64,000 nt of DNA from Verrucomicrobiia bacterium (GCA_035765895.1 DASTWL010000053.1:1-64000); one strand, 5' to 3'. Positions 1,648 to 36,160 are shown, numbered from the stretch's first letter. Made by a program: numbers and translations. The notes: generated from the letters alone by a model not told the origin.

Positions 1648-2148
1648 ATGATCCGAGCCAGATCTAATCTCGATGTGCAATTCGAGAGCTTCAGTTATCG
1701 CCACGCTGACGAAATCCTCAATGCCAATCTCTCCGTTAAAAAGGAGATCCAGAAAGTTTTGGGCGCAACCGAATCCGTCCCCGTTAAGCAGGGGGAAGAA
1801 GGATTGACCGCCAAGTTATCAGAGGCCTTTCGCGTCTCGGGCTGGAATGGCGAGGTTCCAGTCGTTGAAGGCAAGCACCACACGCAGTATTTCGATTTCT
1901 TCAAATCACGCGTCGCCATCGAAATTGAGTTTTCCCGCTACGAGTTCATCTACCGCGACTTCATCCGTTTCCTGGCCGCCTACAATGCCAACAAGATTGA
2001 TGTCGGTGTCATCATCACCAACACGCGTGAGGGCTTGAACCGCATCAAATACAAATCCTCCGGCCCGAACTTCGAGCGCGTCTGTGATGAACTTGACTGG
2101 CTCCGCCCCACGCTCACCGTCCCGCTCTGGGTCATCGGGCTGAAATAG
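1648..2148 (+). CDS. BglII/BstYI-family type II restriction endonuclease
   Basis: 166 residues. The ATG at 1648, 11 bp after the methyltransferase stop, is preferred. An in-frame ATG at 1606 would overlap the methyltransferase end. The nuclease core is visible as VAIEIEFSRYEFIYRDFIRF followed by IDVGVIITN, which matches the family pattern of an acidic beta-hairpin (E-x-E/Q) and a following hydrophobic strand. It presumably cuts a GATC-centred hexamer such as RGATCY or AGATCT. Codon use is visibly more AT-rich than in the flanking genes, which suggests transfer. The last codons and stop (TGAAATAG at 2141-2148) are also the left end of a repeated block seen again at 2413 and 3298, so the C-terminus may have been supplied by a repeat. 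Confidence 0.85.
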   Translation: MIRARSNLDVQFESFSYRHADEILNANLSVKKEIQKVLGATESVPVKQGEEGLTAKLSEAFRVSGWNGEVPVVEGKHHTQYFDFFKSRVAIEIEFSRYEFIYRDFIRFLAAYNANKIDVGVIITNTREGLNRIKYKSSGPNFERVCDELDWLRPTLTVPLWVIGLK

Positions 2149-2161
2149 CGTTTCACGTCCT

Positions 2162-2314
2162 CCCTCACCCCAACCCTCTCCCCATGGAGAGGGGGAAACC
2201 TTCGGCCGGCACCCGCGCGCCTTGCCGGCATCGGCGTTCGCACGGCAGCCGTGCCATCCACCACCGACAGCCGCCGCCATTCCCTCTCCCCGGGGGAGAG
2301 GGCCAGGGTGAGGG
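2162..2314. repeat. REP/MITE-like element, copy A
   Basis: The 153-bp unit begins CCCTCACCCCAACCCTCTCC and ends with the imperfect inverse, GGGGGAGAGGGCCAGGGTGAGGG. Internal hairpins are CCCTCTCC-CCAT-GGAGAGGG near the left end and CCCTCTCCCC/GGGGAGAGGG near the right end. It lies 13 bp after the endonuclease stop. Confidence 0.8.
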
Positions 2315-2433
2315 CGGGTGTTGACCAATCACTACCCGCAACACGTCCAAGTCCTGTGTGATGTCGCGTTGTTGAAGCACGGCGAACGCGGCGTGTGGCG
2401 TTTGCCGTAAGTTGAAATAGCGTTTCACGTCCT
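2315..2433. repeat. Spacer repeat S, copy 1
   Basis: 119 bp between elements A and B, nearly identical to 3199-3318 between elements C and D. Shared landmarks are TTGACCAATCAC, GTCCAAGTCCTGTG, ATGTCGCGTTGTTGAAGCAC and TTGAAATAGCG. No gene is recognisable in it; it may be a fragment of an ancestral sequence co-duplicated with the elements. Confidence 0.7.
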
Positions 2434-2585
2434 CCCTCACCCCAACCCTCTCCCCATGGAGAGGGGGAAACCTTCGGCCGGCACCGGCGCATCTTACCGG
2501 CATCGGCATTCGCGCGGCAGCCGTGCCATCCACCACCGACATCCGCCGCCATTCCCTCTCCCGGGGGAGAGGGTTAGGGTGAGGG
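2434..2585. repeat. REP/MITE-like element, copy B
   Basis: 152 bp, same inverted-repeat-bounded structure as copy A, ending CCCGGGGGAGAGGGTTAGGGTGAGGG. It lies immediately before the DUF559 gene. Confidence 0.8.
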
Positions 2586-2644
2586 CGGGTGTTGACCAAC
2601 AGGGCAGGCGTTGACAAATGGCATTTCCTTTGCACGCTCGTGCC

Positions 2645-3034
2645 ATGGCCGACATCGACCGCGCCCGGCAGTTGCGCCGCGACCAGACGTGGGCTGAGAA
2701 GCTCATGTGGCGCTGGCTGCGGGACCGGCGATTCAGCGGCTACAAATTCCGCCGCCAACATCCCCTGGGCCGTTATACTCTCGATTTTTTCTGCGAGGAG
2801 GCCGATTTGAACATCGAACTCGACGGGGGCCAGCACGGTTTTCCCGAGCAACGACAAAAGGATTTGGAGCGGGAGCAGTTTCTCCAATCACTGGGCATCA
2901 AGACGCTGCGGTTTTGGAATTCGCATCTGCGTCGGAATGCACAGGGCATTCGTGACACCATCTTCAACGAATTGCAGGCACGGGCGCCGCATCCATTGCC
3001 GGACTACACGCGAACGACAAAGTCGAAGAAGTAA
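2645..3034 (+). CDS. DUF559 domain endonuclease-like protein
   Basis: 129 residues from the ATG at 2645; an in-frame ATG at 2618 is possible but adds nine non-conserved residues. It matches the DUF559 family, which has a Vsr/PD-(D/E)XK-like fold: RARQLRRDQTWAEKLMW near the N-terminus, then YTLDFFCEEADLNIELDGGQH, where Asp and Glu are the likely metal ligands, and RFWNSHLR near the C-terminus. The substrate is unknown. The gene is bracketed by two near-identical repeat arrays (A-S-B and C-S-D), so it appears to have moved or duplicated with them. The tail after NELQARA is probably poorly conserved. Nuclease activity is inferred from the family. Confidence 0.85.
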   Translation: MADIDRARQLRRDQTWAEKLMWRWLRDRRFSGYKFRRQHPLGRYTLDFFCEEADLNIELDGGQHGFPEQRQKDLEREQFLQSLGIKTLRFWNSHLRRNAQGIRDTIFNELQARAPHPLPDYTRTTKSKK

Positions 3035-3045
3035 GTTTACGTCCT

Positions 3046-3198
3046 CCCTCACCCCAGCCCTCTCCCCAAGGAGAGGGAGAAACGCTCGGCCGGCGCCCGC
3101 GCGCATCACCTGCACCGGCATTCGCATGGCCTGCTCACAAGCCACCTTCGATGGACGTCGCCATCCCCTCTCCCCGGGGGAGAGGGTCAGGGTGAGGG
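3046..3198. repeat. REP/MITE-like element, copy C
   Basis: 153 bp, starting 11 bp after the DUF559 stop. Same layout as copies A and B, with CCCTCTCCCCGGGGGAGAGGG and GGGTGAGGG at the right end. Confidence 0.8.
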
Positions 3199-3318
3199 CG
3201 GGTGTTGACCAATCACCACCCCGCAACATGTCCAAGTCCTGTGCGATGTCGCGTTGTTGAAGCACGGCAAACGCGAAGCGTGGCGCTGGCCGTAAGTTGA
3301 AATAGCGTTTCACGTCCT
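3199..3318. repeat. Spacer repeat S, copy 2
   Basis: 120 bp, near-identical to 2315-2433. It ends with GTAAGTTGAAATAGCGTTTCACGTCCT, the same left flank that precedes copies A and B. Confidence 0.7.
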
Positions 3319-3412
3319 CCCTCACCCCAGCCCTCTCCCCATGGAGAGGGGGAAACCTTCGGCCGGCTTGGTCGCGTATCACCTGCATCGGCGTTCGCGC
3401 GGTCCGACGCCG
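3319..3412. repeat. REP/MITE-like element, truncated copy D
   Basis: The left arm and first hairpin (CCCTCTCC-CCAT-GGAGAGGG) are intact. The sequence then diverges and runs into the 3' end of hflX at 3413, so the right terminal repeat is missing. Confidence 0.7.
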
Positions 3413-4708
3413 TTACGCTGTCTGCAATTCCTTCACCACAAACTTCTGAAATTCGTGGTGGAAGTGCGGCGGGATGCGGGCTTTGAAGCGCGCGGTTTCG
3501 CCGGCGTAGTCGCGTTCCACCACCTGCCCGACTTCGTGCAGGCGCGCAATGACGTCCGAGCGTTCGTGCGGCACGGCGAGTTCGAGGAATTCGCGGATGG
3601 GCCGGAGTGCGGCGCCCAGTTCGGCCAGCAATTCCGGCACGCCCTGCCCCGTTTTGGCGGAAATCAACGCCGCATGCGGATGCCGTTCGAGAAAGCGGCT
3701 CAGCACGTCGCCGGGCGGAATGAGGTCCACCTTGTTGAAGACCATGAGCGTGGGCTTGCCCGCGGCGCCAATCTCGCCGAGCACGGCATTCACGGCCTCG
3801 ATGTGCTCCTCGGCCTGCGGATGACTGGCGTCCGCCACGTGCACGAGCAGGTCGGCCCGCACGACTTCTTCGAGCGTGGCCTTGAAGGCTTCCACGAGGT
3901 CGTGCGGCAGCTTGCGGATGAAGCCCACCGTGTCGGTGAGCAGCACGTTCTGGTTGGTGGGCAGGCGCAGCCGGCGCGTGGTGGGATCGAGCGTGGCGAA
4001 CAGCTTGTCCTCGGCGAGCACTGCGGCGCCGGTCAGCTGGTTGAGCAGCGTGGACTTGCCGGCGTTGGTGTAGCCGACAATGGAGGCGAGCGGCCATTGC
4101 TGGCGCTGCCGGGAAAGACGTTGCGTGGAGCGCTGACGCCGGACGATTTCGAGCTCCTCGATGATTTTGTCGATGCGCTCCTGGGTCTTGCGGCGGTCGG
4201 CTTCAAGCTGCGATTCGCCTTCGCCACCCCGCATGCCGATGCCGCCCTTTTGCCGCGACAAGTGCGTCCAGTAACGCGTCAGCCGCGGCAGCAGATGTTC
4301 CAGCTGCGCAAGCTCGATCTGGAGCTTGCCTTCGCGGGTGCGGGCGCGTTGGGCGAAGATGTCGAGGATGAGCGCCGTGCGGTCGAGCACTTTGCACTCG
4401 AAGATTTTTTCGAGGTTGCGGCTTTGCGCCGCCGTGAGTTCGTCGTCAAAGACGATCGTGTCCACCTGGTTTTCCTTGCACCAGGCGGCGAACTCGGCGG
4501 CCTTGCCCTTGCCGATGTAGGTGCCGGGGTTGGGCGTGTCGGTCTTCTGCACGCCCTCGCCCACCACGGTGCCGCCGGCGGTTTGGACCAGCTCGGCGAG
4601 TTCCGTGAGCGTTTCGCGGGTGGAACCGCCGGTGTGGCTTTTCAATTCGACACCGACGAGAAAGACGCGTTCGGTTCGCTGTGTGCGGGTTTCGATTAAA
4701 GCTCTCAT
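3413..4708 (-). CDS. hflX: Ribosome-associated GTPase HflX
   Basis: 431 residues. It has the HflX N-terminal domain with the glycine-rich linker (KGGIGMRGGEGESQLE), then a G domain with G1 GYTNAGKST, G3 DTVGF and G4 NKVD. The family splits or rescues stalled 50S/70S ribosomes, especially under heat or antibiotic stress. The ATG at 4708 overlaps the TGA of hicA by 4 bp (ATGA), so translation is probably coupled to the upstream toxin-antitoxin genes. The C-terminal tail runs into the truncated repeat D. Confidence 0.95.
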   Translation of the reverse strand: MRALIETRTQRTERVFLVGVELKSHTGGSTRETLTELAELVQTAGGTVVGEGVQKTDTPNPGTYIGKGKAAEFAAWCKENQVDTIVFDDELTAAQSRNLEKIFECKVLDRTALILDIFAQRARTREGKLQIELAQLEHLLPRLTRYWTHLSRQKGGIGMRGGEGESQLEADRRKTQERIDKIIEELEIVRRQRSTQRLSRQRQQWPLASIVGYTNAGKSTLLNQLTGAAVLAEDKLFATLDPTTRRLRLPTNQNVLLTDTVGFIRKLPHDLVEAFKATLEEVVRADLLVHVADASHPQAEEHIEAVNAVLGEIGAAGKPTLMVFNKVDLIPPGDVLSRFLERHPHAALISAKTGQGVPELLAELGAALRPIREFLELAVPHERSDVIARLHEVGQVVERDYAGETARFKARIPPHFHHEFQKFVVKELQTA

Positions 4709-35787: not shown

Positions 35788-35920
35788 GGCCTTCGGCCAC
35801 CCTCTCTCCATCGGATATAGCAGTTTCATAAATACTGTAGCCGTCCTGACGGCAGCAGCCCCTCACCCCGTCCCTCTCCCCATCCGATGGGGAGAGGGTG
35901 GCCGAAGGCCGGGTGAGGGG
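35788..35920. repeat. Inverted REP-like repeats between GH35 and the DUF2959 gene
   Basis: A perfect 12-bp hairpin, CCCTCTCCCCAT (35872-35883) with ATGGGGAGAGGG (35887-35898), sits inside CCCTCACCCCGT...GGGTGAGGGG (35859-35920). A partial inverted copy (GGCCTTCGGCCACCCTCTC) lies at about 35788-35816. It is related to the elements near 2-3 kb. Confidence 0.65.
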
Positions 35921-36160
35921 CCGGCGAATAACCCGACGGCTACGACATTATCTAAACCGCTCTAGAGGGAGGGACGGGGTGAGAATTGCCCGAACGGTTT
36001 GCGCATTGCCCCCCGAACCGCGAGGTGGCCGCTCTAGTGGGACAGGCAGGATGCCTGTCCCACTACGCCGGTTCGGGGGAGGGGGTTCTGCTGCCTTACG
36101 GCGGCAAAATTTGTGAAACGGCTCCGCGCACGATGCCGGCACACGAACGACCGCCCTCCC
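35921..36160. other. Gene-free stretch with palindromes
   Basis: Together with 35670-35920 this makes about 570 bp with no supported gene. It holds a partial inverse of the same repeat (GAGGGAGGGACGGGGTGAG at about 35966-35984) and the 13-bp palindrome at 36035-36065. Otherwise nothing is recognised. Confidence 0.5.
36035..36065. repeat. Perfect 13-bp palindrome, TAGTGGGACAGGC type
   Basis: TAGTGGGACAGGC (36035-36047), loop AGGAT, GCCTGTCCCACTA (36053-36065). A REP-like hairpin, not followed by a T tract on either strand, so probably not a terminator. Confidence 0.7.

Follow-up and report, generated by a model that had tools for sequence, protein, structure and literature searches.

What does a single small nuclease gene have to do with the array of palindromic repeats that surrounds it? 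The window, a stretch of 64,000 nucleotides from a Verrucomicrobiia bacterium (GCA_035765895.1), carries at 2159-3400 three complete and one truncated copies of a ~158-bp element around a DUF559 gene (Table 1). The original prediction had described this region as four units of about 150 bp in the order A-S-B, DUF559, C-S-D, and had suggested that nuclease and repeats make up a composite mobile unit, with the nuclease helping to spread the repeats. We examined the composition of the array, the association of its two components in other genomes, and the sites at which they occur.

The array and its components

The predicted order is present in the window sequence, and so are the near-identical spacers (S), which measure 119 and 120 bp if counted from CCCTCACCC to GGGTGAGGG. 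Elements A, B and C are complete; element D lacks its right half and borders directly on an hflX-like GTPase gene (3413-4708, minus strand) at that gene's 3' end. All four elements start with CCTCCCTCACCCCRRCCCTCTCCCC, and the inverted GGGGGAGAGGGYYRGGGTGAGGGCGG forms the end of A, B and C. The DUF559 gene occupies the place that is taken elsewhere in the array by the spacer. On its other side the array is flanked by a BglII-like restriction-modification pair (179-2148), which comprises an N6_N4 methylase (179-1636) and, directly upstream of the array, an endonuclease that ends at 2148 and matches the BglII family (PF09195, E = 4e-20).

Table 1. Features of the array and a related isolated unit in the window
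Feature	Position	Strand	Description
Element A (BoxC/triplex REP dimer)	2159..2317	+	Tag CCTCACCC and hairpin, ~100-bp core, inverted hairpin and tag
Element A half-sites	2165, 2311	+ (2165), - (2311)	Found by half-site search
Spacer S1	2318..2430	unstranded	Right end TGAAATAGCGTTTCACGTCCTC is also found at 2142-2163, at the 3' end of the endonuclease gene upstream
Element B (second REP dimer)	2431..2588	+	Tag towards the nuclease gene
DUF559 nuclease gene (YcjD-like, Vsr/EDxHD-fold)	2645..3034	+	129 aa
Element C (REP dimer)	3043..3201	+	Tag towards the nuclease gene; 9 bp past its stop codon
Spacer S2	3202..3315	unstranded	Spacer-containing direct repeat, 90% identity to the S1 copy
Element D, truncated	3316..3400	+	Left half only; single half-site (3322)
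Compact isolated unit, same motif	35859..35922	unstranded	CCCTCACCCCGTCCCTCTCCCCATCCGATGGGGAGAGGG...GGGTGAGGGG; without a nuclease gene alongside

The inverted termini that had been predicted were found in A, B and C, but they are more than simple inverted ends. Each is a small hairpin (CCCTCTCC..GGAGAGGG, also written CCCTCTCCCC..GGAGAGGG) with an unpaired tag before it, the outer unpaired tag in the window being CCTCACCCCRR. Because each element end is itself a hairpin with an unpaired tag, the complete element reads as a head-to-head dimer of tagged hairpins, which is REPIN-like rather than a simple MITE. Folded as single-stranded DNA, element B is predicted to reach -45.9 kcal/mol (z = -5.4). 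The array repeats are beyond chance, because the 4.6-Mb genome has 49 copies of the half-site TCWCCCNNNCCCTCTCCC and none of its reversed control; seven of the 49 lie inside the 1.2-kb array. The compact unit elsewhere in the window belongs to a CCGT class and contains a second small palindrome, GGCCGAAGGCC. The CCGT half-site has many copies in the window genome, and none of this class was found among the half-sites beside the DUF559 genes at loci C33, C53 (the window, 2-3.4 kb) and C63.

The BoxC/triplex repeats of E. coli were already known in the 1990s. By its sequence, the window element is such a repeat: both the hairpin and the conserved unpaired third-strand tag, YCACCCYRR, are present at 2159-3400, and the E. 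coli BoxC copy beside ycjD has the same sequence as the window repeat. BoxC/PIT, the 'intrastrand triplex motif', has 23 copies in E. coli MG1655, is found in more than 260 genomes and forms a stable triplex in vitro, and no transposase, integrase, mobility gene or functional neighbour was reported for it (Holder et al. 2015, PMC4666352). The window repeat shares with BoxC/PIT a G/C-rich hairpin, a third-strand tag, an arrangement in inverted pairs and an intergenic position. What sets the present observations apart from those of Holder et al. is the bracketing of DUF559 genes across phyla, the in-frame insertions and the covariation of tag and stem, all described below.

A second family of repeats invites comparison. 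The CGTC-tagged REPs are mostly head-to-head dimers of tagged palindromes, have been described without a dedicated transposase, and include CCTC among their tag variants (Di Nocera et al. 2013, PMC3733652). The BoxC stem, CCCTCTCC, differs from theirs, which is of the ATTCCCGC type and has AT at its start. At 13 annotated loci, no CGTC tag on a ATTCCCGC-type stem was adjacent to the DUF559 gene. The idea that CGTC-ATTCCCGC repeats have their missing partner in DUF559 was dropped, no such repeat being present beside the DUF559 genes examined.

The window gene matches DUF559 (PF04480, E = 9e-35; 119 bits against a curated cut-off of 20.6), and likely starts at 2645 rather than at the alternative in-frame position 2618. 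E. coli ycjD is a member of the same family, and YcjD has been grouped with Vsr in the PD-(D/E)XK superfamily (PMC1189080). An AlphaFold model of the window protein (pLDDT 84.7) matched the solved gonococcal relative 3hrl (Z 15.2), the EDxHD homing endonuclease I-Bth0305I (3r3p; Z 13.8) and Vsr bound to DNA (1cw0; Z 10.6). Four DUF559 residues (E67, D69, H73 and D82) are invariant. The modelled fold together with these acidic and histidine residues places the window protein, as a prediction, in the Vsr/EDxHD nuclease superfamily. The likeness to I-Bth0305I and Vsr lies in the catalytic-domain fold, and the conserved E, D, H and D are compatible with the EDxHD name. Unlike EDxHD homing endonucleases, the window protein is a bare catalytic domain bracketed by repeats, with no apparent intron or intein and no long DNA-binding extension. 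A PADLOC match to DpdF (E = 5e-10) was rejected as an indication of function, as it covers a short stretch only, and the toxin-B-subunit rows in a PDB profile search were regarded as weak, chance matches of a 50-residue stretch.

Association of DUF559 genes with the repeat

Relatives were sampled as 58 genomes of the window organism's order, in which DUF559 genes were split into strong, short genes and weak ones, the latter mostly parts of long proteins. The motif occurred within 1.5 kb of the gene at all 21 strong loci retrieved and in at least two copies at 19 of them; two or more units were found at 2/60 control loci (Fisher p = 3e-14). Motif density reached 1.39/kb at the strong loci, compared with 0.14/kb at 12 weak or long DUF559/MTES loci, 0.09/kb at 30 Y1 transposase loci and 0.05/kb at 30 PIN-domain loci. 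In the window genome itself, the repeat lies ~50 bp from the DUF559 gene at C33 and at 0.7 kb at C63, and forms the array at C53.

A scan of GTDB species by protein alone yielded more than 500 relatives, from which we took 80 loci, 32 of them from Verrucomicrobiota and hence not independent. A canonical tag-stem unit lay within 600 bp at 69 of these loci, compared with 17/234 control windows in the same loci, and its median distance from the DUF559 gene was 64-74 bp. Perfect hairpins followed the same course, with 2.7/kb within 500 bp of the gene and ~0.3/kb at 500-4000 bp. Several loci that lack a perfect hairpin or a canonical tag have an imperfect or variant unit. Loci with the repeat belong to Verrucomicrobiota, Pseudomonadota, Chloroflexota, Thermodesulfobacteriota, Cyanobacteriota, Bacteroidota, Bacillota and others, and the repeat also occurs at DUF559 genes of Sinorhizobium, Azospirillum, Deinococcus, Synechocystis, Klebsiella and Neisseria. 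In E. coli, ycjD is located between sapF and fabI and adjoins a BoxC copy. DUF559 genes and BoxC repeats are associated across phyla, and their enrichment beside each other in relatives, on which the original prediction had been staked beforehand, is strong against several controls. A search of the open-access full-text literature, with subscription papers outside its reach, returned no paper that joins BoxC repeats with DUF559.

A copy in Klebsiella pneumoniae (L045, 3000-3420) lies between cysP and a Dyp-type peroxidase gene. It has no gene annotation and seems to carry a frameshift, and its BoxC copies are kept.

Nuclease and repeat load also co-occur at the level of whole genomes in two clades, with p-values computed without correction for shared ancestry. 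In the window's order, the median number of half-sites is 30 in genomes with a strong DUF559 gene and 1 in those without (p = 2e-5). In Phytobacter's family, at least four half-sites were found in 12/13 genomes with DUF559, intact or broken, versus 6/106 without it (p = 2e-11). Against a joint unit stand some repeat-rich genomes without the nuclease (G054 and G040 in the order, G083 and G142 in Phytobacter's family) and one genome, G132, with the nuclease and without the canonical repeat; loss, incomplete assemblies or variant tags could explain these discordant cases. E. coli provides another imperfect fit. There, 3,352 of 5,426 complete genomes have ycjD, yet those genomes without it that we inspected have the efflux operon eef (PMC12817139) between sapF and fabI. 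The presence of ycjD is polymorphic, but the alternative allele is an operon and not a clean insertion site, and sapF-fabI was rejected as an empty site.

The tag and the stem of the repeat vary together. For tag TCAYCC and stem CC(C/T)TCTCC, the variable positions agree in 242/244 units (p = 1e-39), TCACCC accompanying CCCTCTCC in 208 units and TCATCC accompanying CCTTCTCC in 34, with 2 exceptions; loci that hold both tag types (n = 14; 57 units) have none. The substitutions in tag and stem mirror each other, as they would have to if a third strand lay on the purine arm (G.GC to A.AT). Under this mirror rule, tags scored 7.45 with their own stems and 7.00 (sd 0.03) with shuffled ones, above 300 flank shuffles among hairpins; the test scores the better side of each hairpin, as hairpins are readable from either strand. 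The tag is thus predicted to be able to pair as a third strand with the stem, and this predicted shape is kept through compensatory change, although the covariation could partly reflect a few old repeat lineages.

The repeat also varies with the enzyme. A divergent DUF559 gene at C19 in the window genome (L066, 870-1915) has its own palindromic repeat, CCCACCCCTAACCCCTCCAAGGAGGGG, in which tag CCCACCCC is mirror-related to stem CCCCTCC. On the nuclease tree, tag type (TCA or TCT) is clustered, with 0/500 shuffles as low, in a set of few rows that includes some near-copies.

Filled, solo and empty insertion sites

Repeat-nuclease-repeat units are found in frame inside genes, with the reading frame open throughout. 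In the window's order they occur in hsdR at several positions and in hsdM at two, and 13 of the 80 loci from the wider scan have open frames of at least 150 residues on both sides of DUF559. From their sequences, we take the host genes to include metH (methionine synthase), valS (valyl-tRNA synthetase), several DNA methylases, one hsdS, the helicase gene hrpA (twice, at the same site) and metG (methionyl-tRNA synthetase; three loci, at the same site). No intein domain was detected around the nuclease by Pfam. The in-frame units consist of repeat-derived linkers and DUF559 only, and in the lack of an intein they differ from intron- or intein-borne homing endonucleases.

Some host genes are visibly altered. 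In one hsdR restriction gene of the window's genome (L047, 2167-4857), the unit stands where the end of the HSDR_N domain and the first helicase motifs would be, and the gene is therefore probably dead. In Methylococcus capsulatus, a DNA methylase (L151, 1193-5881) has an in-frame unit with tandem repeat-derived peptides (ENESPSPAGSGG...) alongside, and a cyanobacterial methylase ORF (L145, 3-3806) starts with a GGQE tandem peptide and also holds an in-frame unit.

Empty alleles were sought by searching the joined flanks of insertion sites. The hrpA site is filled in G183 and G184 and continuous in G186, G190, G191 and G060. At metG, the unit is present in G185, G186, G187 and G190, a solo repeat in G191, and the site is empty in G183, G184 and G060. 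The two sites are reciprocal, genomes that are filled at one being empty at the other. Two hsdM genes (77% identical) share a site that holds a solo repeat in one and a repeat-nuclease-repeat unit in the other, and the second gene has two more solo repeats that are cleanly absent from the first. Repeat and nuclease have been inserted together at sites that are empty in relatives, and the empty sites anticipated by the original prediction were found for whole units at hrpA and metG. Same-site occupancy with empty alleles, as for a free-standing homing endonuclease, was observed at both.

Purifying selection acts on the inserted nucleases in both cases tested (hrpA and metG); for the pair inside hrpA, dN is 0.086 and dS is 1.34. 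The metG inserts are more divergent than their host protein (66-75% versus 83-90%), and the insertion may therefore be old and inherited. This counts against frequent recent movement, as it fits one old insertion that was passed on vertically; repeated homing at the site would be the alternative. Target duplications of the start of a neighbouring gene flank stand-alone units, with 133 bp on both sides at C19 and 87 bp in L115, and direct words of at least 16 nt were found across the gene at 12/56 loci versus 1/95 controls, some of them being parts of the repeat spacer. The duplications occur in few loci only and have no constant length, which counts against the mobile unit.

Palindromic repeats that are inserted in frame in coding genes and translated are also known from Rickettsia (the Rickettsia palindromic elements, including RPE-4 and RPE-6). 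These elements are not known to have a nuclease gene with them. They are unrelated to BoxC in sequence and alike in the in-frame translated insertion.

A candidate two-part mobile unit and its alternatives

We hypothesize that a homing-type nuclease and triplex-forming repeats constitute one mobile unit, with solo repeats as MITE- or REPIN-like derivatives, and assign this reading a probability of roughly 0.6. The window array would be a copy of this two-part unit, composed of a DUF559 nuclease and BoxC repeats with their tags facing the gene, and the scattered solo repeat dimers would be its non-autonomous derivatives. On an exposed strand, for example the lagging-strand template, the repeat could fold to a hairpin whose purine arm is lined by the tag as a third strand. 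The nuclease, coevolving with the folded repeat shape, might cut at the tag and hairpin or at the target, and host repair would fill the break with a copy of the whole unit or of a repeat by itself, in some cases with long target duplications (~90-130 bp) as a trace. Insertions would survive in intergenic DNA or, within conserved genes, as in-frame additions to tolerant linkers, where the repeats may be translated as linkers rich in Pro, Gly, Ser and Glu. Adjacency, co-occurrence and insertions at empty sites support the composite mobile unit that had been proposed for the window. Beyond this, we infer a catalytic role of the nuclease in the spread of the repeats: that it cuts the folded repeat or its target, that cutting drives copying of the unit or the repeat, and that solo repeats are moved by the same enzyme.

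The main rival holds that some other mover spreads BoxC and that the nuclease is a parasite that homes into existing repeats as its recognition site. The modelled closeness of the nuclease fold to a homing endonuclease would suit such a parasite, as would the solo repeats, which far outnumber nuclease copies and in hsdM, and at metG in G191, occupy the same site as filled relatives. Yet the repeat load depends on the presence of the nuclease in two clades, the divergent nuclease at C19 has its own, different repeat in the same genome, and fully empty sites exist beside filled ones. Moreover, no other candidate mover was found beside the repeats, Y1 being the one family tested and not adjacent. 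We regard this account as unlikely, if still worth serious attention. It is improbable that the nuclease is instead a Vsr-like host repair enzyme that resolves triplex or hairpin obstacles and is selected to lie near them, with nothing mobile involved. The Vsr-like fold of the model agrees with such a role, and the Caulobacter DUF559 protein VsrA, which acts on genomic DNA and damages it in vivo, is responsible for the SOS response upon loss of cytosine methylation (PMC12907096). However, a repair enzyme works in trans and has no need of repeats at its own gene, and the patchy presence, the in-frame insertions with empty sites in relatives and the target duplications point to mobility.

Movement of the repeats by RAYT/Y1 tyrosine transposases, as for known REPs, would make DUF559 incidental. 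Y1_Tnp genes are present in 50/58 relatives, and their copy number correlates weakly with the number of repeats (rho 0.29). This explanation is nevertheless very doubtful, and RAYT was rejected as the BoxC mover by the lack of the repeat at Y1 loci: the exact motif was found at 1/30 Y1 loci and two fuzzy motifs at 0/30, as against 17/21 and 19/21 DUF559 loci, and some repeat-rich genomes have no Y1 match (G021, with 226 half-sites). Chance meetings of repeats and accessory nucleases that both accumulate in variable regions would account for the many copies beside or inside restriction-modification genes, including the window copy next to the BglII-like system. But the repeats are missing from control accessory genes of the same genomes, the distance to the gene is tight, flanks beyond 500 bp are at background, and core genes, metG and valS among them, have insertions too; the controls as run refute this idea, and we give it almost no credence.

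The two-part unit that we favour resembles RAYT/REPIN systems in that a small nuclease gene is flanked by tagged hairpin repeats, many non-autonomous dimers are scattered in the genome, and the repeat type follows the enzyme clade. The analogy to RAYTs and REPs drawn in the original prediction extends this far; the repeats themselves are BoxC/triplex motifs and not REPs of the RAYT type. The DUF559 enzyme has, by its model, a Vsr/EDxHD fold and not an HUH/Y1 one, the BoxC tag is pyrimidine-rich and mirror-related to its stem (CTCAYCC/CTCTCCC, not GTAG), and DUF559-BoxC units also occur in frame inside essential genes. The system would act much as RAYT/REPIN and homing endonucleases do, but it has no Y1 enzyme or GTAG tag, and no intein was found, which sets it apart from both. 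Its components are known, and a joint mobile unit was not found described. New here are the in-frame units with empty, solo and filled sites, the covariation of tag and stem, and the fold match to I-Bth0305I and Vsr.

A broader reading, on which we would place an even bet, is that DUF559/YcjD nucleases and BoxC repeats form one previously unrecognised class of bacterial mobile element. In such a class, an EDxHD nuclease would recognise a third-strand-tagged hairpin, spread itself and the repeat across phyla, and invade essential genes in frame without splicing, the repeats serving as protein linkers. The in-frame units in metG, valS, hrpA and metH would be a non-splicing counterpart of inteins. 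The covariation of tag and stem offers evolutionary evidence that the triplex-like shape matters in cells, a relevance beyond the reach of published footprinting. The DUF559 nucleases are widespread, E. coli YcjD among them, and no function has so far been assigned to the family. BoxC and DUF559 each gain a candidate partner, and the origin of the repeat becomes directly testable in E. coli. If the proposal is true, each of two orphans, a repeat lacking a mover and a nuclease family lacking a function, would account for the other.
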